From: a virus
Length of the DNA stretch: 34,415 bases
Reading direction: 5' to 3' (one strand)
IMG/VR virus record: IMGVR_UViG_3300028840_002438
Location: 1-34,415 of that record
Each line of letters opens with the position of its first letter. Positions within the stretch are counted from its first letter, which is position 1. Below are positions 225 through 34,415 of the stretch, piece after piece. A model generated the notes under the pieces. That model saw only the letters and a program-made list of their open reading frames with translations. It had not been told where the DNA came from and did no database searches. The translations under genes and the position numbers were made by a program.

Positions 225-468
225 GCTGTTGGCGTTGGTGGCAGCACTGTCGGTGCTGGTTGTGCAGGTTGGCTGTCTGATAGTCGTCGTCAAACTGGCC
301 CGATCCATCGACAAGCCTGGATCCTCTCGAGAGCCAATGCTGCCCCAGTCGAACACCAACATGGCCGACAAACCTGTTATGCGACAGCCAGGGGTGGTGT
401 ACATGGATGAGGCTCACGAGGCCAGAATCGCCAGGCAGCGGGCTGCAGAGCAGGAGCTGGAGATATGA
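208..468 (+). CDS. Small single-pass membrane protein, 86 aa, unknown function
   Basis: The first 30 or so residues are strongly hydrophobic (ELLALVAALSVLVVQVG, then CLIVVV) and end at a positive KLAR. This predicts one transmembrane helix with the hydrophilic C-terminal 50 residues in the cytoplasm. The rest is polar and charged with no motif I recognise. I chose the ATG at 208 because GAGGAG lies at 194-201 just upstream; an in-frame ATG at 193 would add five residues. It overlaps the regulator by 17 nt and the NeuB-like gene by 4 nt (ATGA), so it is translated as part of the sugar operon. It could be a membrane anchor for the sugar enzymes, a superinfection-exclusion protein or a holin; nothing in the sequence decides. 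Confidence 0.65.
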   Translation: MQMMIELLALVAALSVLVVQVGCLIVVVKLARSIDKPGSSREPMLPQSNTNMADKPVMRQPGVVYMDEAHEARIARQRAAEQELEI

Positions 469-1178
469 GCGATTGCCAGCTCATCATGGATCCCGGCAGC
501 ATCTATAACGAGGACAACCGGTATGCACAGGAGTTCATCGCCCTGGCCAAAGAAGCTGGGGTATGGCTCAAGCCGCAACTGCTGCCGGCATCTGAGGCAG
601 AGGGCACACCCAACCTGCCCTTCGATTTCGAGTCTGCCCCTTGGATGTTCGAATTGGCCCGGGAAGAGGGAGTGACGTTGGTGGGTTCTGTGTGGAATGA
701 GGAGGGGCTGCGGACTCTCAGGGCCTGCGGGGTTGAGAACATCAAATTCAGCTTCTCACAGCGGAAGAACCTGGATCTCATCCATGAGGCATGCAACGAG
801 CCGGCGTTCAAGCGGGTGTTCGTCTCAGGTGATCTGTTCGACACGCCGTGGGTTGAGAACCCCAAAATAATCCGTCTGTACTGCCCATCGGTGGGAGGGG
901 TACCTCTATACCCCCAACCCTTCCTGGTGGACATGGATGGATTATTTGACACGTTTGACGGGCTGTCTGATCACAGTCTGGGATGGAGCCAGACACGGCA
1001 GGCGATGCACAGGGGTGCCCGCTACGTTGAGTTCCATGCCCGGCTGGAGCATAAGTCCGCGACGGCCGATGCTCTATTTGCACGCAGCCCACAGTCCGTG
1101 CTGGATTTCTGCCGGGAGACGGACGAGCCGGTGGAATGGCCACCGGACTACCTGCCCCTCTGGAGGCCCCGGGCATGA
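465..1178 (+). CDS. neuB: NeuB-family nonulosonic acid synthase-like protein, 237 aa
   Basis: NeuB enzymes condense phosphoenolpyruvate with a six-carbon amino sugar to form a nine-carbon sialic, legionaminic or pseudaminic acid. The barrel signatures are visible: AKEAGVWLKPQ (28-38, matching the family's AG-x-x-x-K-x-Q), GVTLVGSVWNEEGL (69-82), an IKFSFSQRKNLDLI strand (93-106), and GLSDHSLG (166-173) followed by VEFHARLE (188-195). His170 and His191 correspond to the two metal-binding histidines of the family and have the same 21-residue spacing as in the characterised Neisseria enzyme. The protein is short: typical NeuB is about 340 residues with a C-terminal antifreeze-like (SAF) domain, absent here. 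The N-terminal AEIG-type motif is altered to MDPGS. ATGA overlaps join it to both neighbours. Family membership looks firm; activity and substrate are inferred. Confidence 0.82.
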   Translation: MSDCQLIMDPGSIYNEDNRYAQEFIALAKEAGVWLKPQLLPASEAEGTPNLPFDFESAPWMFELAREEGVTLVGSVWNEEGLRTLRACGVENIKFSFSQRKNLDLIHEACNEPAFKRVFVSGDLFDTPWVENPKIIRLYCPSVGGVPLYPQPFLVDMDGLFDTFDGLSDHSLGWSQTRQAMHRGARYVEFHARLEHKSATADALFARSPQSVLDFCRETDEPVEWPPDYLPLWRPRA

Positions 1179-1774
1179 CTATCCTGATAGTTGGTAACCG
1201 AGGCAACATGGGTTCCCGGTACACCCAGATCTGTGAGACGCTGGGGCACGATGTGTGGGGGCATGACATTGCAGACGGGAAGAGTTGGGGCGGTTGCAAG
1301 GGGGCTGATTGGGCCATCATCGCCACCCCGGTGGGCACCCACATGGAATGGATAAAGCGGCTGTCCGATTCAGGCGTATCCCACGTTCTGTGCGAGAAAC
1401 CCATAACCACGTCAGCCAGCAAGCTCAAGGACTTACCTTCTGGTGTGTCCATGGTTAACAACTGGGCCTTCCTGTTCCCGTGGCAGATGTTCCCCCAATG
1501 CCACAACATCCACTATTCGAGCCCATGGAGTGGGGGTGACGGGGACTGGGATATGATCCAGCCCGTGTACCTGGCCAACCGACTCACCAGGGAAACGGGC
1601 CCTGTGTTCGACGTACGCATAGACGGGTATCCTGTTACCCGCCATCAGTTCGAGCTGAGCTACGTGTCGATGATCAAGGCGTGGCTCAGGGGGGAGCAGA
1701 TGTGGGGGATTGACAATATCATCGCAGCACATAACCGCGTCCTCAAGTGGATGCAAGGAGCGTTGACACTATGA
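1175..1774 (+). CDS. Gfo/Idh/MocA-type NAD(P)-dependent oxidoreductase, short form, 199 aa
   Basis: The N-terminus is a Rossmann fold, ILIVGNRGNMGSR (3-15), with the G-x-x-G-x-M-G nucleotide loop. The hallmark of the family, E-K-P, is at 74-76 (VLCEKPIT), after an IIATPVGTHM segment (48-57) also typical of it. Gfo/Idh enzymes oxidise or reduce sugar hydroxyls with NAD(P). The usual length is 320-350 residues; here the C-terminal substrate domain is much reduced, which fits small phage-type or sugar-cluster versions or a partly degenerate enzyme. I chose the ATG at 1175, which overlaps the preceding stop as ATGA, over an upstream GTG/ATG in the same frame. It sits between the synthase and the cytidylyltransferase, so it likely acts on the same sugar. 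Substrate unknown. Confidence 0.75.
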   Translation: MTILIVGNRGNMGSRYTQICETLGHDVWGHDIADGKSWGGCKGADWAIIATPVGTHMEWIKRLSDSGVSHVLCEKPITTSASKLKDLPSGVSMVNNWAFLFPWQMFPQCHNIHYSSPWSGGDGDWDMIQPVYLANRLTRETGPVFDVRIDGYPVTRHQFELSYVSMIKAWLRGEQMWGIDNIIAAHNRVLKWMQGALTL

Positions 1775-2457
1775 TCATGGCAGCGATTCAGGCACACTCA
1801 AATTCCACCAGGTTCCCAGGGAAAATCTACGAGAAGCTGGCCGGCAAGAGCATCCTTCAACGGGTGGTTGAGTCTGCCCGGGACGTTGTACAGAACGTGG
1901 TGGTGCTGGGTGTGGAATCTGATCAGGAGCTGCGGGACTACTGCATCGACAACCGGATCCCCGTCTACTTGTCCAAAGAACCCGAGAACGATCTGGTGGC
2001 CCGGTACTTGGACTGCATGACTGCCTACCGGGTGGCCAATGTGGTGCGACTGACGAGTGACTGCCCACTGCTGTCTGTCCCGATGTTGGACTATTGTGTC
2101 AGGATCCACATGACGAACCAGATGGACTTCACCAGCAACGGGTGGCCGCTGGCACGGACGGCCCCTGACGGGTGGGACGTCGAGGTGATCAGCCAGCGAC
2201 TGATGCTGCATGTAGACAAAATGGCCGGGACACCCTACGACAGGGAACACTGCACCAGCTACATCTACTGGAACGAGCCGGAGCTGGTACACTCTGATCA
2301 CCCCTTCAAGCTCTGCAACGTGAAGTACGGGCTGCAGATGGACACCCCCGAGAACAAGTGCTCCGTCGATACCCCCGAGGATCTCGAGCGTCTGCGTGAA
2401 CGCATGGATGCCAAGCCGGCATCACTGTCTGGCATCGAGGAGGATAGATCCAAATGA
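1771..2457 (+). CDS. spsF: SpsF-type cytidylyltransferase (COG1861-like), 228 aa
   Basis: The start MIMAAIQAHSNSTRFPGK (1-18) matches the IIQARMGSTRLPGK signature of SpsF proteins, the nucleotide-binding loop of NTP transferases. NDLVARYLD (74-82) and RLTSDCPLL (93-101) match the DVLARY and R-x-T-x-DCPL motifs that bind the nucleotide and metal. SpsF-like proteins stand beside NeuB-like genes in many bacterial surface-glycan clusters, where they are thought to activate the product as a CMP-sugar; that activity is established for related CMP-NeuA/PseF enzymes and inferred for SpsF. The length is normal for the family. The ATG at 1771 overlaps the previous stop as ATGA, and the next gene starts the same way. 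It would supply the donor for any transferase, including the Maf-like protein at 20270-21490. Confidence 0.85.
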   Translation: MIMAAIQAHSNSTRFPGKIYEKLAGKSILQRVVESARDVVQNVVVLGVESDQELRDYCIDNRIPVYLSKEPENDLVARYLDCMTAYRVANVVRLTSDCPLLSVPMLDYCVRIHMTNQMDFTSNGWPLARTAPDGWDVEVISQRLMLHVDKMAGTPYDREHCTSYIYWNEPELVHSDHPFKLCNVKYGLQMDTPENKCSVDTPEDLERLRERMDAKPASLSGIEEDRSK

Positions 2458-3596
2458 GCTGGCAGTCACGGGCAGAAAAGGTACTCAAGCCGACGACATT
2501 CTCGAAGCAGCCCAACTACTACATCAGGGGTGTCCACCCTACCCACGTTCGGAGTGGGCAAGGGAACTACCTCACTGGCCCGGACAACGAGGTGATCTTC
2601 GACACCACCGGTGGGCTGGGGAGCAACCTATGGGAGTGCAGGAACAACTTCGCGCTGCCGTCCACCAAAGAGGTGATCCTCGCTGAGATGCTCGTCACAC
2701 GCATTCGTTGTGCTGACATGGTGCAGCTTGTGAAGACTGGCTCCGAGGCGTGCAGTGCAGCCATCAGGTATGCCCGAGCGTTCACTGACAGAGGGCAGAC
2801 GGCCGGCACAGGCTACCATGGATGGCACAATCTGTTCATCGCCGCCGAGTCCCCGGGGGCAGGATGCTACTACGAGGGATACCGCAAGTGTCAGAATCTG
2901 AATGAGCTGACAGACTATGCCGATCACAACCGCGATCTGGCTGCAGTCATCATCGAGCCGTGGGAGCTGGATCCCAATGTCACTGATAAGCTGGAGGCAC
3001 TGCGTAGCGTCTGCACTCAGAATGGGATCGTGCTGATATTCGATGAGGTGATCTCAGGTGCCCGAGTGCCCAAGTTCGTGGTTGCCAACTACACAGACGT
3101 ACAGCCTGATCTCATCGTGATGGGGAAAGCCCTGGGAGGTGGGTACCCGCTGGGGATCTGTGCCGGCAGGCGTGACATCATGTCAACCCCAGGAGTGTTC
3201 GTCTCATCGACATTCGCCGGGGAAGAGTCGACGCTGGACGCTGCAATCGCCACCATGCACAAGACGACTGACGATGAGCTGATGCGGTTCTATGATCAGG
3301 CCAATGACTTCCAGCGGAAGTTCAACTACGAGGGGGAAGGGCTGGTGTGGCTGGAGGGGTATGGGACACGGACGGTGCTGCGTGGGCAGAAGAACTATGC
3401 AGCCATCCTGTCCCAGGAGATGTACCGGAGGTACCGCACGTTGATGATGGCCAATGGCCCCCTCATCCCCCATATGAGCTGGAAAACGTCTGACTACTCC
3501 CTGATCATCACCCAGATGCGGCCCATCGTCAAGGAGCTGGACACGCTGCAGCTGGAGGCTGAGCCCGAACCAATCTTCAAGAGAGTGAAGGACTGA
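2454..3596 (+). CDS. Class III PLP aminotransferase (HemL/GSAM-like), 380 aa
   Basis: This is a fold-type I PLP enzyme. TGSEACSAAIRYAR (95-108) is the phosphate-binding stretch, YHGWHN (121-126) carries the ring-stacking aromatic, IIEP (166-169) and IFDEVISG (195-202) give the cofactor-binding Asp197, and MGKALGGGYPLG (223-234) gives the Schiff-base Lys225. The closest well-known relatives by motif are glutamate-1-semialdehyde aminomutase and sugar-cluster class III aminotransferases. It is about 50 residues shorter than HemL. In this operon it most likely aminates a keto-sugar, the step done by DegT-type PseC/LegC in standard pathways. Residues that contact the substrate cannot be read by eye, so a tetrapyrrole role is not formally excluded but has no support nearby. 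ATGA overlap upstream; the next gene overlaps its stop by one base (TGATG). Confidence 0.87.
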   Translation: MSWQSRAEKVLKPTTFSKQPNYYIRGVHPTHVRSGQGNYLTGPDNEVIFDTTGGLGSNLWECRNNFALPSTKEVILAEMLVTRIRCADMVQLVKTGSEACSAAIRYARAFTDRGQTAGTGYHGWHNLFIAAESPGAGCYYEGYRKCQNLNELTDYADHNRDLAAVIIEPWELDPNVTDKLEALRSVCTQNGIVLIFDEVISGARVPKFVVANYTDVQPDLIVMGKALGGGYPLGICAGRRDIMSTPGVFVSSTFAGEESTLDAAIATMHKTTDDELMRFYDQANDFQRKFNYEGEGLVWLEGYGTRTVLRGQKNYAAILSQEMYRRYRTLMMANGPLIPHMSWKTSDYSLIITQMRPIVKELDTLQLEAEPEPIFKRVKD

Positions 3597-3913
3597 TGGC
3601 CTGCAAACAGTGTGGGAAGTGCTGTACCCAATTCAGCATCGTGTACCCCAACAACGATGAGCAGGCGGAGTTCCTCAGGGCACGGGGGTTCAAAGCCTGG
3701 CAGTCCAATGATAAGTTCACCCAATGGGTGCTCAGGACGAGATGCCCACACTTGACACAAGAGAACAAGTGTGACATCTATGAGGGCCGTCCGCTGGCCT
3801 GCCAGGTTTTCCCTGTGACTCTCATGTACCAGAAAATTGGGCTCGATCCTGACAAGGCCGTCCCCAAGGGTTGTGGATACAAGTTCAACGAGGAGACGCA
3901 AACCTATGAGTAG
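3596..3913 (+). CDS. YkgJ/UPF0153-type cysteine-cluster protein, 105 aa
   Basis: The N-terminus MACKQCGKCC has cysteines at 3, 6, 9 and 10, and a second set lies at C50, C59 (NKCDIYEGRP) and C69, with another at C93. This C-x2-C-x2-CC plus C-x-IY-x-x-RP-x-x-C layout defines the YkgJ family, predicted to bind zinc or an iron-sulphur cluster. The biochemical role of the family is not settled. YkgJ-like genes do occur in flagellar glycosylation and surface-sugar clusters, so its place inside this operon may be functional. It overlaps the aminotransferase stop by one base and the next small gene by eight. Confidence 0.8.
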   Translation: MACKQCGKCCTQFSIVYPNNDEQAEFLRARGFKAWQSNDKFTQWVLRTRCPHLTQENKCDIYEGRPLACQVFPVTLMYQKIGLDPDKAVPKGCGYKFNEETQTYE

Positions 3914-4601
3914 GGCTGATCGATTGGCCGAGGTGTTGTACAAGACGCTGTGGGTGATGCGTGAGTACGGCAACGGTGGCACGGCATATGAGGCAGAACT
4001 TCTGATTGAGGAAATGGAGGCAACGTGTATTGGATATCAGGATGCGGAACTCTGGCGCGAGAGCTTGTCCGCCAAATACAAGAGAACTGCGGGGGAGACA
4101 CCCGCATCACCATCTTCTCTCGAAGCGAAAGTCGCCAAGCGGATATGCGACGGGATTTCCCTGAGGGAGGATCCACAGGACTGCGTTACCATATCGGCGA
4201 CATCAGGGACTACGAGCGCGTCAGACGCAGTATCGGTAACCGTCACCGATATGTCCTCCACACCGCAGCCCTCAAACGAGTTGACACAGGAGAGTACGAG
4301 CCCTGGGAGTTCGTCCAAACCAACGTCAACGGGAGCTGGAACGTCATCCGAGCCTGTCATGAATCAGGAGTCGAGCGATGCATGCTCATCTCCACCGACA
4401 AGGCCGTTGCACCCATCACCCACTACGGAGCAACCAAGTTGTGCATGGAGCGACTCGGAATCGGAGCCAACAACCTCGGAACCTGCGGAATCAGCATCTG
4501 TAGATACGCCAACGTCACCGGATCAACCGGCTCAGTCCTCCCGCTCTGGCAATCGCAAAAAGAGAAAGGGAAGCCGCTCACGATCACAGACAAACGAATG
4601 A
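3906..4601 (+). CDS. Unknown protein; long frame overlapping the dehydratase gene, up to 231 aa
   Basis: The ATG at 3906 overlaps the YkgJ-type stop and has GAGGAG at 3889-3894. The first 40 codons fill what would otherwise be the only gap in the operon and look like a normal soluble helical protein (ADRLAEVLYKTLWVMREYG). The frame then runs on for about 190 codons inside the dehydratase gene, in its +1 frame, and gives a Ser/Thr/Pro-rich tail ending in a basic stretch (RKKRKGSRSR). No family is recognised. It may be a small real protein with a chance extension, or a truly overprinted gene. The dehydratase codon choice over the overlap (CTC and GTC in place of CTG and GTG) would keep this frame open, which argues for the second reading but does not prove it. 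Confidence 0.45.
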   Translation: MSRADRLAEVLYKTLWVMREYGNGGTAYEAELLIEEMEATCIGYQDAELWRESLSAKYKRTAGETPASPSSLEAKVAKRICDGISLREDPQDCVTISATSGTTSASDAVSVTVTDMSSTPQPSNELTQESTSPGSSSKPTSTGAGTSSEPVMNQESSDACSSPPTRPLHPSPTTEQPSCAWSDSESEPTTSEPAESASVDTPTSPDQPAQSSRSGNRKKRKGSRSRSQTNE

Positions 4602-4954
4602 CGAGGATGTGGATTTCCAAAGAGGACGCCGCCGAGTTCGTTCTGTACTGCCTGAATTGCTTTGAGCGTGGATGCATATTCGTACCGAAATTTGTCCGGG
4701 CCCGACGTCTGATCGACATGGCCCGCGAGATCGCTCCCGAGCCGTACCCTGTCACAGAGATCGGACTGCGGCCACATGAGAAACTCCATGAGGTGCTCAT
4801 TTCTGAGGGGGATGCCCGGCACACCTACGAGCAGGACATTCGATACACAATCTACCCGGCCCAGCATGACTGGGGGAAAGTACCCCGACGTGGTGTGCAG
4901 TGTGATGAAACTTTCCGTTTATCATCGGCGGTTCTGACTGGAGGAGAAGGCTAA
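4025..4954 (+). CDS. pseB: PseB/FlaA1-type UDP-N-acetylhexosamine 4,6-dehydratase, 309 aa
   Basis: An SDR-type NAD(P) enzyme of the CapD/PseB group, which removes water from UDP-GlcNAc to give a 4-keto-6-deoxy sugar, the first step to pseudaminic- and legionaminic-type sugars. Visible motifs are an N-terminal GCGTLARELVR in place of the usual TGGTGSFG loop, IFSRSE (30-35), GDIRD (58-62), HTAALKRV (79-86), TNVNGSWNVI (99-108), and the catalytic set STDKA (Asp125, Lys126) with YGATK (Tyr134, Lys138). The nine-residue spacing from Asp125 to Tyr134 matches the known PseB/FlaA1 active site. The start is GTG at 4025 with GGAGG four bases upstream. It lies in a +1 overlap with the gene from 3906. 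UDP-GlcNAc as substrate is inferred from family. Confidence 0.88.
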   Translation: MYWISGCGTLARELVRQIQENCGGDTRITIFSRSESRQADMRRDFPEGGSTGLRYHIGDIRDYERVRRSIGNRHRYVLHTAALKRVDTGEYEPWEFVQTNVNGSWNVIRACHESGVERCMLISTDKAVAPITHYGATKLCMERLGIGANNLGTCGISICRYANVTGSTGSVLPLWQSQKEKGKPLTITDKRMTRMWISKEDAAEFVLYCLNCFERGCIFVPKFVRARRLIDMAREIAPEPYPVTEIGLRPHEKLHEVLISEGDARHTYEQDIRYTIYPAQHDWGKVPRRGVQCDETFRLSSAVLTGGEG

Positions 4955-4955
4955 A

Positions 4956-5735
4956 GTGGACGACACGCATGCATCAGTGGTGAACTACTGGAATCACCGC
5001 AGCCAACTGGGTGACATGGCCGGTACCCGTGATCTGGCAGCGAAACGGTTGGAGATGGAGACGCTTGCCACGCACCTGAGGCCTGCTGGAAAAGTGCTGG
5101 ACGCAGGCTGTGGTAACGGCCTATCCATGGCGTGGCTCAAGAACCAAATGCCTGATATCGATTTATATGGCATCGACAACTCCGATGGAATGGTGGGTGC
5201 TTGCAAGGCTCACCTCCAGTCAGAGGGGTGTGAGGCCACAGTCGAGCTGGCGTCTGTCCTCGACTACGATCCCGGGTTCAAGTTCTCAACGATCTACACT
5301 GAGCGCACCCTCATCAACCTCCCCGATTGGGATACGCAGAAACGGGCCATCCTGCACATCCTGTCACTGCTCGAGCCGTCTGAGTTGGGAGTGTACCTCA
5401 TGATGGAGAACTCGCAGGAGGGTGTTGACATCATGAATGCATGGCGGCACAAGCTGGGGCTGGATCCCGTGAAACCTCCGTGGCATAACCGGTACCTCCG
5501 TGATGCTGAGTTGGAGACGATATTCGACAACGATCTGGCCACGCTGTGGGGTATCATCGACTACAGTGCCGGGTACTACCTCATGTCCCGGGTGGTGAAT
5601 GCGTGGCTGGCCAAGCAAGAGAACCTCGAGCCTCAGTACGACAGCCCCCTCAATACACTGGGGATTATGCTTCCAGAACTCGAATCACGGACGTTCGTGG
5701 GGCAAGGTAGGCTGTGGGTTTGGCAGACAAAATGA
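4956..5735 (+). CDS. Class I SAM-dependent methyltransferase, 259 aa
   Basis: Motif I, VLDAGCGNG (47-55), binds S-adenosylmethionine; DLYGIDNSDGMV follows as the acidic-loop motif II, and TIYTERTLINLP is the motif IV-like strand. The layout is that of UbiE/Methyltransf_11-type small-molecule enzymes, not of DNA methylases: there is no DPPY or PCQ motif. The start is GTG at 4956 with GAGGAGAAGG at 4941-4950, one base after the dehydratase stop. Being between the dehydratase and the acetyltransferase, it probably O- or N-methylates the operon's sugar product. The acceptor cannot be seen from the sequence. Confidence 0.8.
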   Translation: MDDTHASVVNYWNHRSQLGDMAGTRDLAAKRLEMETLATHLRPAGKVLDAGCGNGLSMAWLKNQMPDIDLYGIDNSDGMVGACKAHLQSEGCEATVELASVLDYDPGFKFSTIYTERTLINLPDWDTQKRAILHILSLLEPSELGVYLMMENSQEGVDIMNAWRHKLGLDPVKPPWHNRYLRDAELETIFDNDLATLWGIIDYSAGYYLMSRVVNAWLAKQENLEPQYDSPLNTLGIMLPELESRTFVGQGRLWVWQTK

Positions 5736-6357: not shown

Positions 6358-7338
6358 TTAGATCGCCTTATATCTGAGGTAGCCTGAAATCCCCTTGGTA
6401 TTTGCAGCCGTCCAGCCATCACCTCTGTAGTTGCTGTAGCACTCAACAGTTTTCGTGGCGGTGGCCACCTCAACAGCACCAGGGAATGTCAGTGCCGAGG
6501 TGTTATCGATAACGGCGGCGGCGTGGAACAGCAGCCCAACCCCATCGGTGGCGGCAGTGACAGGGAGCGTCATCTGCATGCTGGTGGCGGTTGAGGTGCC
6601 TTGTGCATAGTACCACACATCCACCATGGCACCCAGCTGTTGATAGTACCCGTATTCAGTGTGCCCTGCATCGAGCCCGGTGAACGCAGGAGTGAACGTC
6701 GTGTACTGAGTAGAGTAACAGTCCCCGGCAACGGCGACAGCTCCTCCAACATCCAATGATCCACCAATGGTGGCCGCAGTAGTCACCTGCAGGGAATCCA
6801 CAACGCCTGTCGCGGCCCCGGTGATTACGCCACCCACATCCAGAGTGGTTCCCATGGTGGCGGCTGTCGTCACCTGCAATGAATCCACTGTTGCTGAACC
6901 TGCAACAGCAACGGCTCCCCCGATATCGGCTGCACCGCCAATGGTGGCCGCAGTAGTTACCTGCAGTGAATCAACGACACCTGTCGCGGCACCGGTGATC
7001 ACCCCACCAACATCGAGGGTAGTCCCAATGGTGGCTGCAGTTGTCACCTGCAGAGAGTCCACCACGGCCGTGTTGGCTACTGACAGGGTTGACGACAGGG
7101 TGGTGGCCCCGGTGACACCCAGAGTCGATGCGAGGGTAACTGCACCCGTGACACCCAGAGTGGTTCCCACGGTAACCGCACCCGAGCAGGTGATCGAGTT
7201 GCACTCCAGATCGGCAACGTTGATGTCCTCAGTACCATTGCTCAGTCCATCAGTCACGTCGGTGAAGTTGGTGTTCACCTCGGTGGCATCAGCCGTGGAA
7301 CCATTGACAAATGTGTAGGTTACTGCTATGTAGGCCAT
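6358..7338 (-). CDS. Tail fibre-like protein with repeats, 326 aa
   Basis: The N-terminus (AYIAVTYTFVNGSTADATEVNTNF) is the kind found on phage fibres and baseplate proteins. The middle is built of beta-rich repeats: first short ones (VTGAVTLASTLG, VTGATTLSSTLS), then four longer units starting VDSLQVTTAATIG with about 29-30 residues each, in an ABAB pattern. These give thin trimeric fibre shafts in related proteins. The C-terminal 110 residues are a separate domain with many aromatics (HTEYGYYQQLGAMVDVWYYA), a likely receptor-binding or trimer-closing tip. It is Thr/Ser-rich, so it is also a possible glycosylation target. Function inferred from repeat architecture and position. Confidence 0.75.
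   Translation of the reverse strand: MAYIAVTYTFVNGSTADATEVNTNFTDVTDGLSNGTEDINVADLECNSITCSGAVTVGTTLGVTGAVTLASTLGVTGATTLSSTLSVANTAVVDSLQVTTAATIGTTLDVGGVITGAATGVVDSLQVTTAATIGGAADIGGAVAVAGSATVDSLQVTTAATMGTTLDVGGVITGAATGVVDSLQVTTAATIGGSLDVGGAVAVAGDCYSTQYTTFTPAFTGLDAGHTEYGYYQQLGAMVDVWYYAQGTSTATSMQMTLPVTAATDGVGLLFHAAAVIDNTSALTFPGAVEVATATKTVECYSNYRGDGWTAANTKGISGYLRYKAI
6770..7065 (-). repeat. In-gene direct repeats of the fibre shaft
   Basis: Four copies of a unit of about 87-90 bp encode the VDSLQVTTAATIG repeats. Copies 1 and 3 resemble each other most, as do 2 and 4, so the array looks like a duplication of a two-unit block. Such arrays change length by recombination and can alter fibre length. 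Confidence 0.85.
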
Positions 7339-20269: not shown

Positions 20270-21490
20270 TTAAATGAGGAAACTGTATTTCACGTTCGGA
20301 TCATTCAACAGCTCCGGCATCCTCTGGTAGCGTTTGAAGATGTACAGAAACTCTGCAAGCCTCATGTTGGGGATCTGGATGATGTTCCCGTTGGGATACG
20401 CCCCCAGAGTCCCACCCTCGGTGCAGTTGTACACCATCATGGGGTTGTTCCCCTTCCCACCAAGCAACTGGAATTCTATCCAATTGCGGAAATTTTGGTA
20501 GGACTGCCAACTGTACACCCTGTTGCCGAAAATATCGGTACATGGCACCAGCCCGGCGAATTTCGCATCGTACTGTGAATCCCACGCATGGAACTTGTGG
20601 GTGTAGTCGAATGCGAAGTCGGTACCGATGAACGCGATGGGTGCTGAACCGAAAATGCACACGGCATGGTAGAATACGGCCCCAAACGTATTCCCTCCGA
20701 CGTTGTAGGCCACCTTGAGCTTCGGTATCAAGCTCTCCATCTTGTTGATGAATTCAGGATCCGGAATCAGGCAGTTGAACCAGTAGATCTTGCCTCTCCA
20801 TTTCTTGATGAATTCAGGGTGTGACACGGCCGCTGCGATAAGGACTTTGTCCTCAGTCTCAGCCCAATATTCCTCGGGCTTCTTGGCCCCACCCTCAGAC
20901 ATCTCAGAGATGGTGATCTCACCAGCGTCCAGGTTCACCCAGTACTTGCAGTCAACACCCTTGTCACTGAAGAAGGGGAAGTTGTGACAGCAGGATACGA
21001 TGGGGATCTCGGGTGGTTTCTCTTTGGCCAGAACATCGACGTTTTTCTTCAACGAAGGCCCACTCCCGGCACAGATGCAAGGCCGGTAAGCGTACTTGCC
21101 GTGGAGCTTCATCACCGAGTTTCCCTCGATGTCGTTGTTGTCACGATTGATGCGGATGTGATCGAGCCACATGTCCCGCCATGACTCGGCGGTGATGGCA
21201 TCGTTCGAGCAAGCCTGTCCGTAGAGCTGGGACTTGTTCAGCGGAGGAGCGGCGATGGGTGGCTGGTACTGCAGAATCATCGGCACCATACCCTTCTTCT
21301 CCTCTTCCCACTGGGCCTGCTGCTGTTCGAACTCCTTCACTTTCTGAATGAGTTCGTCCTTCGTGAACGCCGTCATGTCAGCCGAAACCGACGTCATCGC
21401 TGTGGCTGGTACCTGGCCTGCTATGGCCGAGTCCAGAGGTGCTGTTGCAGAGGTTGCCGGAACTGTCAAAGAACCGTTTTTCTCACTCAT
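20270..21490 (-). CDS. DUF115/Maf-like glycosyltransferase candidate, 406 aa
   Basis: CICAGSGPSLKKNVDVL (138-154) carries the GSGPSL motif of the DUF115/MptE-like domain, which is the catalytic domain of Maf motility-accessory factors. The usual following elements are there: IVSCCHNFPFFSDKGVDCKY with WVNLDAG (a substrate-binding strand and acidic residue), and NVGGNTFGAVFYHAVCIFG then IAFIGTDFAF with a nearby HKFHA, matching the family's G-x-x-L-x-x-x-A-x-x-LG and LiG-x-D-x-x-x...H pattern. Maf proteins attach CMP-nonulosonic acids to flagellin Ser/Thr. An N-terminal low-complexity part and a coiled coil (DELIQKVKEFEQQQAQWEEE) precede the domain. The start chosen (21490) has GGAAATAGGG upstream. 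Alternatives: another DUF115 activity. Substrate is inferred. Confidence 0.7.
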   Translation of the reverse strand: MSEKNGSLTVPATSATAPLDSAIAGQVPATAMTSVSADMTAFTKDELIQKVKEFEQQQAQWEEEKKGMVPMILQYQPPIAAPPLNKSQLYGQACSNDAITAESWRDMWLDHIRINRDNNDIEGNSVMKLHGKYAYRPCICAGSGPSLKKNVDVLAKEKPPEIPIVSCCHNFPFFSDKGVDCKYWVNLDAGEITISEMSEGGAKKPEEYWAETEDKVLIAAAVSHPEFIKKWRGKIYWFNCLIPDPEFINKMESLIPKLKVAYNVGGNTFGAVFYHAVCIFGSAPIAFIGTDFAFDYTHKFHAWDSQYDAKFAGLVPCTDIFGNRVYSWQSYQNFRNWIEFQLLGGKGNNPMMVYNCTEGGTLGAYPNGNIIQIPNMRLAEFLYIFKRYQRMPELLNDPNVKYSFLI

Positions 21491-21500
21491 TTTTGCCCTA

Positions 21501-21574
21501 TTTCCTTTCCGTGCCCTTGAGGGTTTCTTAAGGCTCAGCGACTGCCGCATTCCCTCCAAGGGCACGGAAGGAAA
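21501..21574 (-). promoter_or_regulatory. Large stem-loop in front of the Maf-like gene
   Basis: Arms of about 22 bp (21501-21523 and 21552-21574) pair almost perfectly with two single-base slips, around a 28-base loop. On the minus-strand mRNA it lies between the decoration-like gene and the Maf-like start. The AAGGAAA part of the second arm is only about 11 bases from the ATG, so folding would hide part of the ribosome site. There is no U-run right after the stem, so a simple terminator is unlikely; mRNA processing, attenuation or translational damping fit better. Confidence 0.7.
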
Positions 21575-21603
21575 CGACAGCCGCCTCGCCCTCTTTTTTT
21601 CTC

Positions 21604-22083
21604 TTACATACACTGAACGAGTGCGTGGAAGTTACCCGCAGTGGTAGTGGCCGTGAGAGCCTTGGCGAATACCGCCTTGCTCCACGTAGTGCCAGTTCCA
21701 CCGGTGGGCGCATCCACGGAACCGTCAGCAGCCGTCGCAATCGGGTAACCTGCAGCAATCGCGGTGTTGCCAGCATTCTCGAGCATCATGATGCCGCTAC
21801 GGCCAACCCACCCGTAGGTGGCTGTCGTAAGGGTGGCGTTCTGCACGACACCGAATGGCTTCGAGATGGGATCGATGATGCTGGAAACCGTGACGCTGTA
21901 CCCGGTGACGGCCGACAGAGTGCAGATTTCCCCAGGATTGATCTGGGTAGTTCCTGCATTGTACACGTACTGGTACAGAATTTCACCTTCGTAGCGCAGC
22001 GTCCCAACTTCAACACTGTTGGTGGCTGTCACTGCGGAGACTGACTCTGTCCAGACTGTCGGGAGTCCATATGGCCCTGCCAT
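21604..22083 (-). CDS. Head decoration-like protein, 159 aa
   Basis: The gene right after the major capsid protein. It is rich in Thr, Ala, Gly and Val, nearly without charges, and beta-rich (YEGEILYQYVYNAGTTQINP, GYPIATAADGSVDAPTGGTG). This composition and position are those of capsid decoration or head-fibre proteins. It contains the segment KALTATTTAGNF near the end, another Thr-rich loop. Assigned by position and composition, not by a named domain. Confidence 0.62.
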   Translation of the reverse strand: MAGPYGLPTVWTESVSAVTATNSVEVGTLRYEGEILYQYVYNAGTTQINPGEICTLSAVTGYSVTVSSIIDPISKPFGVVQNATLTTATYGWVGRSGIMMLENAGNTAIAAGYPIATAADGSVDAPTGGTGTTWSKAVFAKALTATTTAGNFHALVQCM

Positions 22084-22150
22084 GGTTTCTATTCTCCGGT
22101 TTAGGGTTTATTCACAAGTTATCAACACTCATGAATTTCTTTTATGTCAA

Positions 22151-32999: not shown

Positions 33000-33178
33000 T
33001 TCGAGTCCTTTCGCCACTTCTTCTCAGCCTTCCTGTAATCGGCCCGGTGCTGGATCCACACTTCCTCGCCTTCTTCCCTGAGCCAATCCTCCAAAGCCTC
33101 GGGGTGATCGAACTCGTAGATCTTGTGCACCCTCATGGTGCCACGGAACGGGTGGATGTTCGAATAGGATACTTTCAT
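32996..33178 (-). CDS. Hypothetical small protein, 60 aa
   Basis: Overlaps both neighbours by four bases. A polar, charged, mostly helical protein (DHPEALEDWLREEGEEVWIQ) with a basic C-terminus. No family recognised; position suggests an early accessory. Confidence 0.5.
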   Translation of the reverse strand: MKVSYSNIHPFRGTMRVHKIYEFDHPEALEDWLREEGEEVWIQHRADYRKAEKKWRKDSK

Positions 33179-33996
33179 GCGGCTTCCTCCTGACTGATTG
33201 TGGCTTCAAGGCTGACACCTTTTTTGGTGTCTTCTATGTGTCCGCTGACAACATCGTACCCTTCCCTGAGGATCGCCTTCTTGAGTTCGATAAGTGAATT
33301 CTTTTTCTCTGCAGGCCACTCAGACAAGGTTCCACCCAGCTCTTTGAACCTGCTGACAAGTGTACGGATCTGTTTCGTGATCTCTGGCTCTGGCTCTGGC
33401 TTTTGTTCCATCGTGTTACCGGTAACACGTCCTGTCTGTGCTGTTGCTGTTGATGTTGCTGTTGCTTCTAAGGCTTTTGCTTCAAGGGCCTTAGCGGGCC
33501 CGCCACCGTTGTTACCGGTAACACGCTTCTTGTTACCGGTAACATCATGGAACTGCTTATGAGATGTATTATGTATCATTCGATCATGAGATGAACCTGA
33601 ACCTGAGCTTGGATCTGTCTTTTGATCTTGGCTCTTACGCGCCCGGGACTCAGCCATGGCCTTGGCCTTGTCAGCGTTGTAGGTGTCCTGATTGGCCTTG
33701 CACCGTTCGATCTCGTGGTGCCTGATGATTCCGCCGTCATCCTTGATCAGGATTCCCGTGGCGAATGCGGCACGCATGATGTCAGCGAACTTGGTGTTTG
33801 GATCACCCAGGCACAAGGCATCCTTGATTTCCTCGAGGAATTCCACGGTGACATCTTCGTTGTCCAGCAGTTGTTCCATGACTGCCAGAACGACACCGAC
33901 ACCGGCAGGCCCTGTACGAAGACGGAATTGAACCCACTGTGGGCCTGTCATGAATCCACGGGACAGTTTGACGTAGCGGATAGCTTTGGCGGGCAT
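33175..33996 (-). CDS. Replisome-organiser-like protein (Lin1244/DUF4373-like), 273 aa
   Basis: The N-terminal 110 residues resemble the Lin1244/Lin1753-like winged-helix domain of phage replication initiators (FMTGPQWVQFRLRTGPAG; MEQLLDNEDVTVEFLEEIKD; ADIMRAAFATGILIKDDGG). The middle is a low-complexity Lys/Ala/Gly/Ser/Thr/Glu-rich linker with three VTGN units (152-155, 159-162, 191-194), and the C-terminus is a charged helical region as in DnaD-type initiators. The first gene of the minus operon, as usual for early genes. The start at 33996 has GGGAGG at about 34002-34007; an in-frame upstream start (34095) is possible. The three palindromes in the linker DNA may be the origin. Confidence 0.62.
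   Translation of the reverse strand: MPAKAIRYVKLSRGFMTGPQWVQFRLRTGPAGVGVVLAVMEQLLDNEDVTVEFLEEIKDALCLGDPNTKFADIMRAAFATGILIKDDGGIIRHHEIERCKANQDTYNADKAKAMAESRARKSQDQKTDPSSGSGSSHDRMIHNTSHKQFHDVTGNKKRVTGNNGGGPAKALEAKALEATATSTATAQTGRVTGNTMEQKPEPEPEITKQIRTLVSRFKELGGTLSEWPAEKKNSLIELKKAILREGYDVVSGHIEDTKKGVSLEATISQEEAA
33412..33544. repeat. Three perfect 14-bp palindromes (origin iteron candidates)
   Basis: TGTTACCGGTAACA occurs at 33414-33427, 33510-33523 and 33531-33544; the first is extended to a perfect 18-bp palindrome, CGTGTTACCGGTAACACG at 33412-33429. The second and third start 21 bases apart, two DNA turns. Each encodes VTGN in the replisome-organiser gene. Iterons inside the initiator gene are the rule in ori lambda. 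The sequence also resembles the LacI-family GntR operator (TGTTA-N4-TAACA), so a repressor site is an alternative. Confidence 0.7.
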
Positions 33997-34015
33997 CGAT
34001 TCCTCCCAAATGAAA

Positions 34016-34068
34016 CGGGCCCTGCTGGGCGAAAACCGGGATGAGCTACCGGTATACAGCAGGGCCCG
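34016..34068 (-). promoter_or_regulatory. Leader stem-loop upstream of the replisome-organiser gene
   Basis: A perfect 12-bp inverted repeat (CGGGCCCTGCTG at 34016-34027 and its complement at 34057-34068) with a 29-base loop that contains a further ACCGG/CCGGT stem. It lies in the predicted 5' leader, about 8 bases from the SD. No U-run follows, so attenuation or translational control fits better than termination. Confidence 0.7.
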
Positions 34069-34122
34069 TAAGAAATCATCTGGAAGTCGATGCATTTTTG
34101 AGGCATCACCTGTGCTCAGTCC

Positions 34123-34230: not shown

Positions 34231-34244
34231 GATTGTATACAATC
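34231..34244. promoter_or_regulatory. 14-bp operator-like palindrome
   Basis: GATTGTATACAATC is a perfect palindrome between the two divergent promoters, ending 14 bases before the plus-strand -35. The likely binder is the ribbon-helix-helix protein of 60-224, which would then repress its own operon. Confidence 0.65.
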
Positions 34245-34258
34245 GTTCACAGAACCAC

Positions 34259-34287
34259 TTGACAGCTCAGGATTCCTGTGGTATCTT
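34259..34287 (+). promoter_or_regulatory. Promoter of the sugar operon
   Basis: TTGACA (34259-34264), a 17-base spacer and TATCTT (34282-34287), a full -35 and a four-of-six -10. The same -10 is at 11-16 in the left copy. Transcription would start near 34294, equal to base 23 of the left copy, and reads the regulator and all sugar genes. Confidence 0.75.
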
Positions 34288-34415
34288 CTGAGCATTGTTA
34301 ATATTCTTTTAACCCGGAGACATACCTCCCATGGCAGACATGGTTACCCTCACCACCATCGTGAGTCAGGAGCTGGCCGACAAGGTGCGGGCTGCTGCTG
34401 ATGAGGATGGGCGCA
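34272..34415. repeat. Terminal direct repeat, right copy (circular joint)
   Basis: Identical to bases 1-144. It contains the -10 of the plus-strand promoter and the first 28 codons of the ribbon-helix-helix gene, whose complete copy is at 60-224. Confidence 0.95.
34331..34415 (+). CDS. Ribbon-helix-helix gene, partial copy cut by the window end
   Basis: Identical to the first 85 bases of the gene at 60-224. It is the same gene on the circle, not a second gene. Confidence 0.9.
   Translation, partial: MADMVTLTTIVSQELADKVRAAADEDGR

Follow-up and report, generated by a model that had tools for sequence, protein, structure and literature searches.

A putative iteron origin of replication inside the initiator-like gene of a tailed phage

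We have found three identical palindromes inside a single gene of a tailed phage, which by its architecture resembles the genes of replication initiators. In our opinion they probably form an iteron origin embedded in the initiator gene, working like ori-lambda. It is likely to be an example of a known arrangement: origins inside initiator genes have already been described in lambda, SPP1 and Tuc2009. The palindromes are unique in the window, their conservation points to a constraint on the DNA, they have weak DNA at their side, similar dyads are found in the viral loci L005 and L008, and their half-site is enriched in the linkers of PF09681 genes. For these reasons an iteron origin is the best explanation of the features which are directly observed: the sequence, its frame, the identity of the codons, the instability of the DNA and the recurrence in other genomes.

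The window, i.e. the whole stretch of 34,415 bp which we have analysed, starts and ends with an exact direct terminal repeat of 144 bp (1–144 is identical to 34272–34415). As a consequence the virus record is probably a complete circle, the whole genome of 34,271 bp. It belongs to a tailed phage, with matches to the small and large terminase, the portal and the major head protein. No close relatives of its large terminase were confirmed in the viral contigs searched. The scan of the ORFs of the window, several of which have no assignment, did not recognise a replicative helicase, primase or polymerase. The genome also has nonulosonic-acid-like genes in positions 465–5735 (+) and 20270–21613 (−): a partial PseI/NeuB, Gfo/Idh, a cytidylyltransferase, a class III aminotransferase, a methyltransferase, a PseB-like dehydratase (match to TIGR03589 with E 1e-81, which is below the equivalog cut-off) and, in the structural module, a PseD/MptE-like protein. 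Such genes may serve for the glycosylation of the phage's own virion or for changes in the glycans of its host.

The initiator-like gene occupies positions 33175–33996 on the minus strand and codes for a protein of 273 amino acids. Its likely start is the ATG at 33996; a Shine-Dalgarno sequence, GGGAGGAA, is placed just upstream at 34000–34007. Its leader contains a perfect inverted repeat of 13 bp with a 29-nt loop (34015–34069). The protein is organized as an N-terminal domain, a basic helix, a low-complexity linker and a helical C-terminus. The AlphaFold single-sequence model is weak (mean pLDDT 43.5); its predicted helices are 30–44, 51–63, 70–79 and a long one, 93–126, ahead of the linker. 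This order of domains matches the phage replisome organisers, a resemblance and not homology. The protein has no family match in Pfam or PHROG and no tblastn match in the phage collection; no close relative was confirmed in IMG/VR viral contigs, and its matches to solved structures are at chance level. It could not be placed in PF09681, as the N-terminal domain of this family was not matched, nor related to lambda O, as no Pfam or PHROG family was found. Profile comparison (hhalign) with two initiator sets gave nothing useful: against an alignment of 11 initiators the result was E 0.014 over 27 columns, with a probability of 3%. As neither a homologue nor a useful profile match was found, which counts against the origin, we infer its role as initiator from its architecture and by elimination.

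The first-pass annotation had reported three identical perfect 14-bp palindromes in the low-complexity linker of this gene, two of them at a step of 21 bp, with no other copy noticed by eye in the window. All of this was borne out. The sequence TGTTACCGGTAACA is found exactly at 33414–33427, 33510–33523 and 33531–33544, all three within the linker of the ORF 33175–33996 (−). The 21-bp step separates the copies at 33510 and 33531, and there are 96 bp from 33414 to 33510. A search of the record with up to one mismatch gives these three sites only (none for the reversed control), and there are no further copies with up to two mismatches in the 34,415 bp. With three mismatches two more matches appear, at 6501 and 17842; in shuffled windows the mean number of matches with up to three mismatches is 0.73, and none of 100 shuffles reached the observed five. 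The circular genome has six perfect palindromes of at least 14 bp, and half of them are the copies of TGTTACCGGTAACA. In gene order we call them iteron A (33531–33544), iteron B (33510–33523) and iteron C, which is an 18-bp perfect palindrome (33412–33429) around the 14-bp core. The spacer between B and C (33430–33509) is T-poor in part on the gene strand, the minus strand. The irregular spacing of iteron C, 96 bp from B, counts against the origin.

All three palindromes are in the same reading frame and each one encodes V-T-G-N. Under the codon usage of this phage the codons GTT ACC GGT AAC have a probability of 0.011 for one VTGN, and of 1.3e-6 for all three, if codons are assumed to be independent. 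The palindrome also extends beyond these residues: the outer T is retained as the third base of GAT, CGT and CGT (residues D, R and R) and the outer A as the first base of AAG, AAC and ACG (residues K, N and T), with a probability of 1.2e-4. The identical codons and the conserved outer bases point to a selection on DNA. The three VTGN of the linker peptide would be dictated by the DNA sites, and we give this the same good confidence as the iteron origin as a whole.

A candidate DNA unwinding element is found at 33556–33595, 11 bp from iteron A, as judged from nearest-neighbour stability. Among the non-overlapping 40-bp sites of the genome it ranks second in instability: only 0.012% of the 40-bp windows are less stable. 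Unlike most other sites of comparable rank, which are found between the main ORFs, it lies within coding DNA, and it is likely to be the unwinding element. No DnaA boxes were found near the three iterons, a result which counts against the origin. The GC-skew check which had been proposed was carried out, and it does not discriminate an origin: the cumulative minimum (34165) coincides with the start of divergent transcription. The divergent promoter region contains another 14-bp palindrome, GATTGTATACAATC, at 34231–34244, which differs from the iterons in sequence and is likely to be a transcription operator rather than an iteron. After it, a sigma-70-like promoter can be read by eye, with TTGACA (34259–34264), 17 bp and TATCTT (34282–34287), which precedes a small ribbon-helix-helix-like gene with its ATG at position 60. 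The match of this divergent protein (60–224) has E 0.049, below the cut-off.

In lambdoid and Stx phages ori-lambda is found in gene O: its iterons are inverted repeats, placed in the central part of the gene beside an AT-rich tract. In the Stx phage P27, changes in the iterons which spare the O protein sequence abolish plasmid replication (PMC7466680). The window has the same plan: dyad iterons in the middle of a putative initiator gene, with an AT-rich tract (33556–33595) adjacent to them, 5' of the array in the direction of the gene. The name of lambda-O-like origin given at first stands for the plan, with embedded dyads and adjoining weak DNA, and fails for the protein family, the side of the weak DNA and the number of dyads. 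There are three 14-bp dyads instead of the four imperfect 19-bp ones of ori-lambda, the iterons are based on GTTAC and the protein was not identified as a lambda O. Most related arrays have the weak DNA on the 3' side and not on the 5' side, a difference which also counts against the origin. In SPP1 oriL is located within gene 38 (PMC6316719). The rep gene of Tuc2009 is annotated as containing the origin of replication, and its linker has repeated CAACCAA-type words; no GTTAC array was found in rep of TP901-1. The window shares with SPP1 and Tuc2009 the presence of repeats inside a gene of the replisome-organiser type, but the iteron words differ and the tblastn search with its protein gave no match in the phage collection.

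Similar dyads are found in other viruses. When viral contigs were scanned for pairs of exact copies of TGTTACCGGTAACA at 2–32 bp from each other, a single locus was obtained, L005. Here the array TGTTACCGGTAACA, TGTTATGCATAACA, TGTTACCGGTAACA, with steps of exactly 21 bp, occupies the 3' end of a gene for 204 amino acids. The middle site remains a palindrome although two residues differ. The L005 protein has a weak match to winged-helix families, and its N-terminal part is 33–44% identical to phage proteins, several of them annotated as DnaD or 'replication initiation'. In L008 a small winged-helix-like gene contains four TGTTA-N4-TAACA dyads with a step of 21 bp, which encode VTGN, VTGN, VTGN and VTDN. 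The window gene shares with these two the dyads, the 21-bp step and the VTGN in frame, but no similarity could be detected between its protein and theirs. When the spacing was left free, all five pairs at 21 bp in 60 viral stretches were inside the L005 and L008 genes. Most of the seven annotated phages with L005-type initiators which we examined have other repeats, of 22–23 bp, at the equivalent place. These repeats and the words of Tuc2009 occupy the same place, which indicates a general position with a variable word.

Bacterial and archaeal genomes present a different picture. In the 118 stretches listed the commonest step of TGTTA-N4-TAACA dyads is also 21 bp, with at least 29 pairs; among the matches listed they are mostly intergenic or in low-complexity repeats, and none was seen by eye in an initiator-like ORF. 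Similar dyads with this step thus also occur outside origins, which counts against the origin, and a dyad pair alone is not diagnostic. In L094, L098, L099, L101 and L134 there are TGTTA-N4-TAACA pairs with a 21-bp step, mostly outside ORFs; the first four contigs are titled as archaea, and L101 and L134 have two pairs each, about 1.1 kb apart. The strict GTTAC pair is absent from 369 gammaproteobacterial genomes and present in one of 385 alphaproteobacterial ones, the classes being those we assume from the centres, Rouxiella and Komagataeibacter respectively. This single case (L391:1501–1533) is a GTTAC dyad pair with a 21-bp step, immediately ahead of a nucleotidyltransferase/antitoxin-like ORF; from this position it is probably an operator and not an initiator site.

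The pair GTTAC-NN-GTAAC was found in 103 loci of viral contigs. Most of them belong to one of two groups: tail-fibre-like ORFs, with VTGN repeats at multiples of 12 bp, and initiator-like ORFs, in which an N-terminal domain is followed by a linker containing VTRN, VTCN, VTSN or VTGN. Six of the ten initiator-like ORFs scanned have family matches (PF09681 in four, DnaB_2 in two, one of which also has PF09681, and DnaT in one); the remaining four have none. From 27 ORFs chosen among these loci we selected by eye 14 which look initiator-like. Together with L005, L008 and the window gene they make a viral set of 17 genes. The near-copies L265, L327, L297, L315, L329, L331, L304 and L328 and the copy L314 were excluded; the initiator-like L308 and L283, the tail-fibre-like class and other ORFs are also outside this set. 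The least stable 40 bp of the gene is at most 30 bp from the array in 16 of the 17 (4.1 expected for random placement).

PF09681 genes were also drawn blind to iterons from two classes, represented by 291 and 299 genomes. The 55 loci gave 52 with an ORF, 50 with a linker of at least 150 bp and 48 after dereplication. In these 48 linkers the most enriched 6-mer is CGTTAC/GTAACG, with 49 occurrences for 3.2 expected, in 13 genes; GTTAC/GTAAC occurs 61 times (15.6 expected) in 17 genes. The top 5-mers are AGATA-type words, from purine-rich, AT-rich repeats beyond the array. Clusters of at least three GTTAC half-sites are present in 14 of the 52 genes, and in ten of these 14 the least stable 40 bp of the gene is at most 30 bp from the cluster (2.5 for random placement, P 5e-5). 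Four control words had no link with the least stable DNA. A fifth one, GTTGC/GCAAC, behaved like an iteron (6/7 adjacent to weak DNA) and may be another iteron word. GTGAC and TGTCC, which were tested because they were already enriched in these linkers, are adjacent to the least stable DNA in 6/9 and 7/12 cases. It appears that PF09681 linkers (L336–L390) use GTTAC, GTGAC, GTTGC and TGTCC as alternatives, gene by gene, and each of these words is often beside the least stable DNA. The window gene shares with the organisers which have GTTAC linkers the order of domains, the position in the linker, the half-sites and the adjacent weak DNA. It differs in that their half-sites are often back to back (GTAACGTTAC), whereas the window has only GTTAC-CG-GTAAC. 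A GTTAC array in the linker with the least stable DNA next to it, as found in the window gene, is a regularity which comes from this analysis and not from a published rule. The adjacent weak site, the dyads in other initiator-like genes and the enrichment of the half-site support the plan of an origin.

If so, the palindromes would be dimeric binding sites, with half-site (T)GTTAC, for the protein of their own gene. The dimers bound to A and B would be two turns apart and so share a face of the DNA, and iteron C would be looped in or add cooperativity. The bound dimers would strain and melt the weak DNA at 33556–33595, where the helicase, primase and polymerase of the host would then be loaded.

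The palindromes might instead be operators, where a phage or host repressor (the RHH-like protein of 60–224, or a host regulator of the LacI family or GntR type) controls transcription. Perfect dyads with a central CG do resemble LacI-family and GntR operators, the small RHH-like protein is divergently encoded, and L391 is an example of similar pairs with a 21-bp step in intergenic DNA outside origins: given its place ahead of an antitoxin-like gene, such dyads can be operators. But the sites are 450–580 bp inside an ORF, away from the gene's own promoter, the divergent promoter region has its separate palindrome (34231–34244), comparable dyads are found beside weak DNA in the linkers of other phage initiator-like genes, and the 14-mer TGTTACCGGTAACA was not found in the literature searched. 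We consider operators unlikely.

A different question is whether the palindromes are simply a by-product of coding for VTGN as a peptide motif which is repeated, as could be thought from the single frame of the three sites and from the phage tail-fibre-like ORFs rich in VTGN repeats. Tail repeats are mostly at multiples of 12 bp with varied codons, while here the codons are identical (P 1.3e-6), the palindrome reaches past the repeated residues, and L005 retains the dyad when residues change; a protein-level repeat is very improbable. Finally, the sites could serve in partition, copy control or autoregulation, with the true origin elsewhere. A rival origin could be 22107–22146, in the gap which separates the head gene from the next ORF: no other 40-bp site of the genome is less stable, and it overlaps a perfect match to the TTATNCACA DnaA box (22108) and another with one mismatch (22119). 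Yet matches to DnaA boxes in the whole genome are fewer than expected by chance (12 and 17.4, respectively), and the linker site is almost as unstable and also carries the iterons, so that we find this quite improbable.

In the case of the embedded iteron origin, the gene illustrates how a protein sequence may be set in part by the DNA sites which it must contain. The window would be a new case of embedded origin, with an unrecognised initiator. It may also be new that GTTAC half-sites recur in initiators which have no detectable similarity to one another: in the papers covered by our searches we found neither the 14-mer nor a link between GTTAC and the origins of replisome organisers, which is weak evidence. 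We propose tentatively, with a little less than even confidence, that GTTAC is a widespread origin word, and that dissimilar initiators (PF09681 types, L005/L008 types and the orphan of the window, with no detectable mutual similarity) carry its dyads in their own linkers beside their least stable DNA. If this is true, the peptide VT[G/R/C/S]N would be imposed by the origin, and the sequence alone could be enough to locate the origins of unknown phages. For the phage studied here the iterons give a testable origin, with a putative initiator which has no relative in the collections searched. The rule suggested is simple: a small initiator-like gene whose linker combines GTTAC-type dyads with the least stable DNA. 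In uncultured phages it may help to predict where the origin is and which protein is the initiator.
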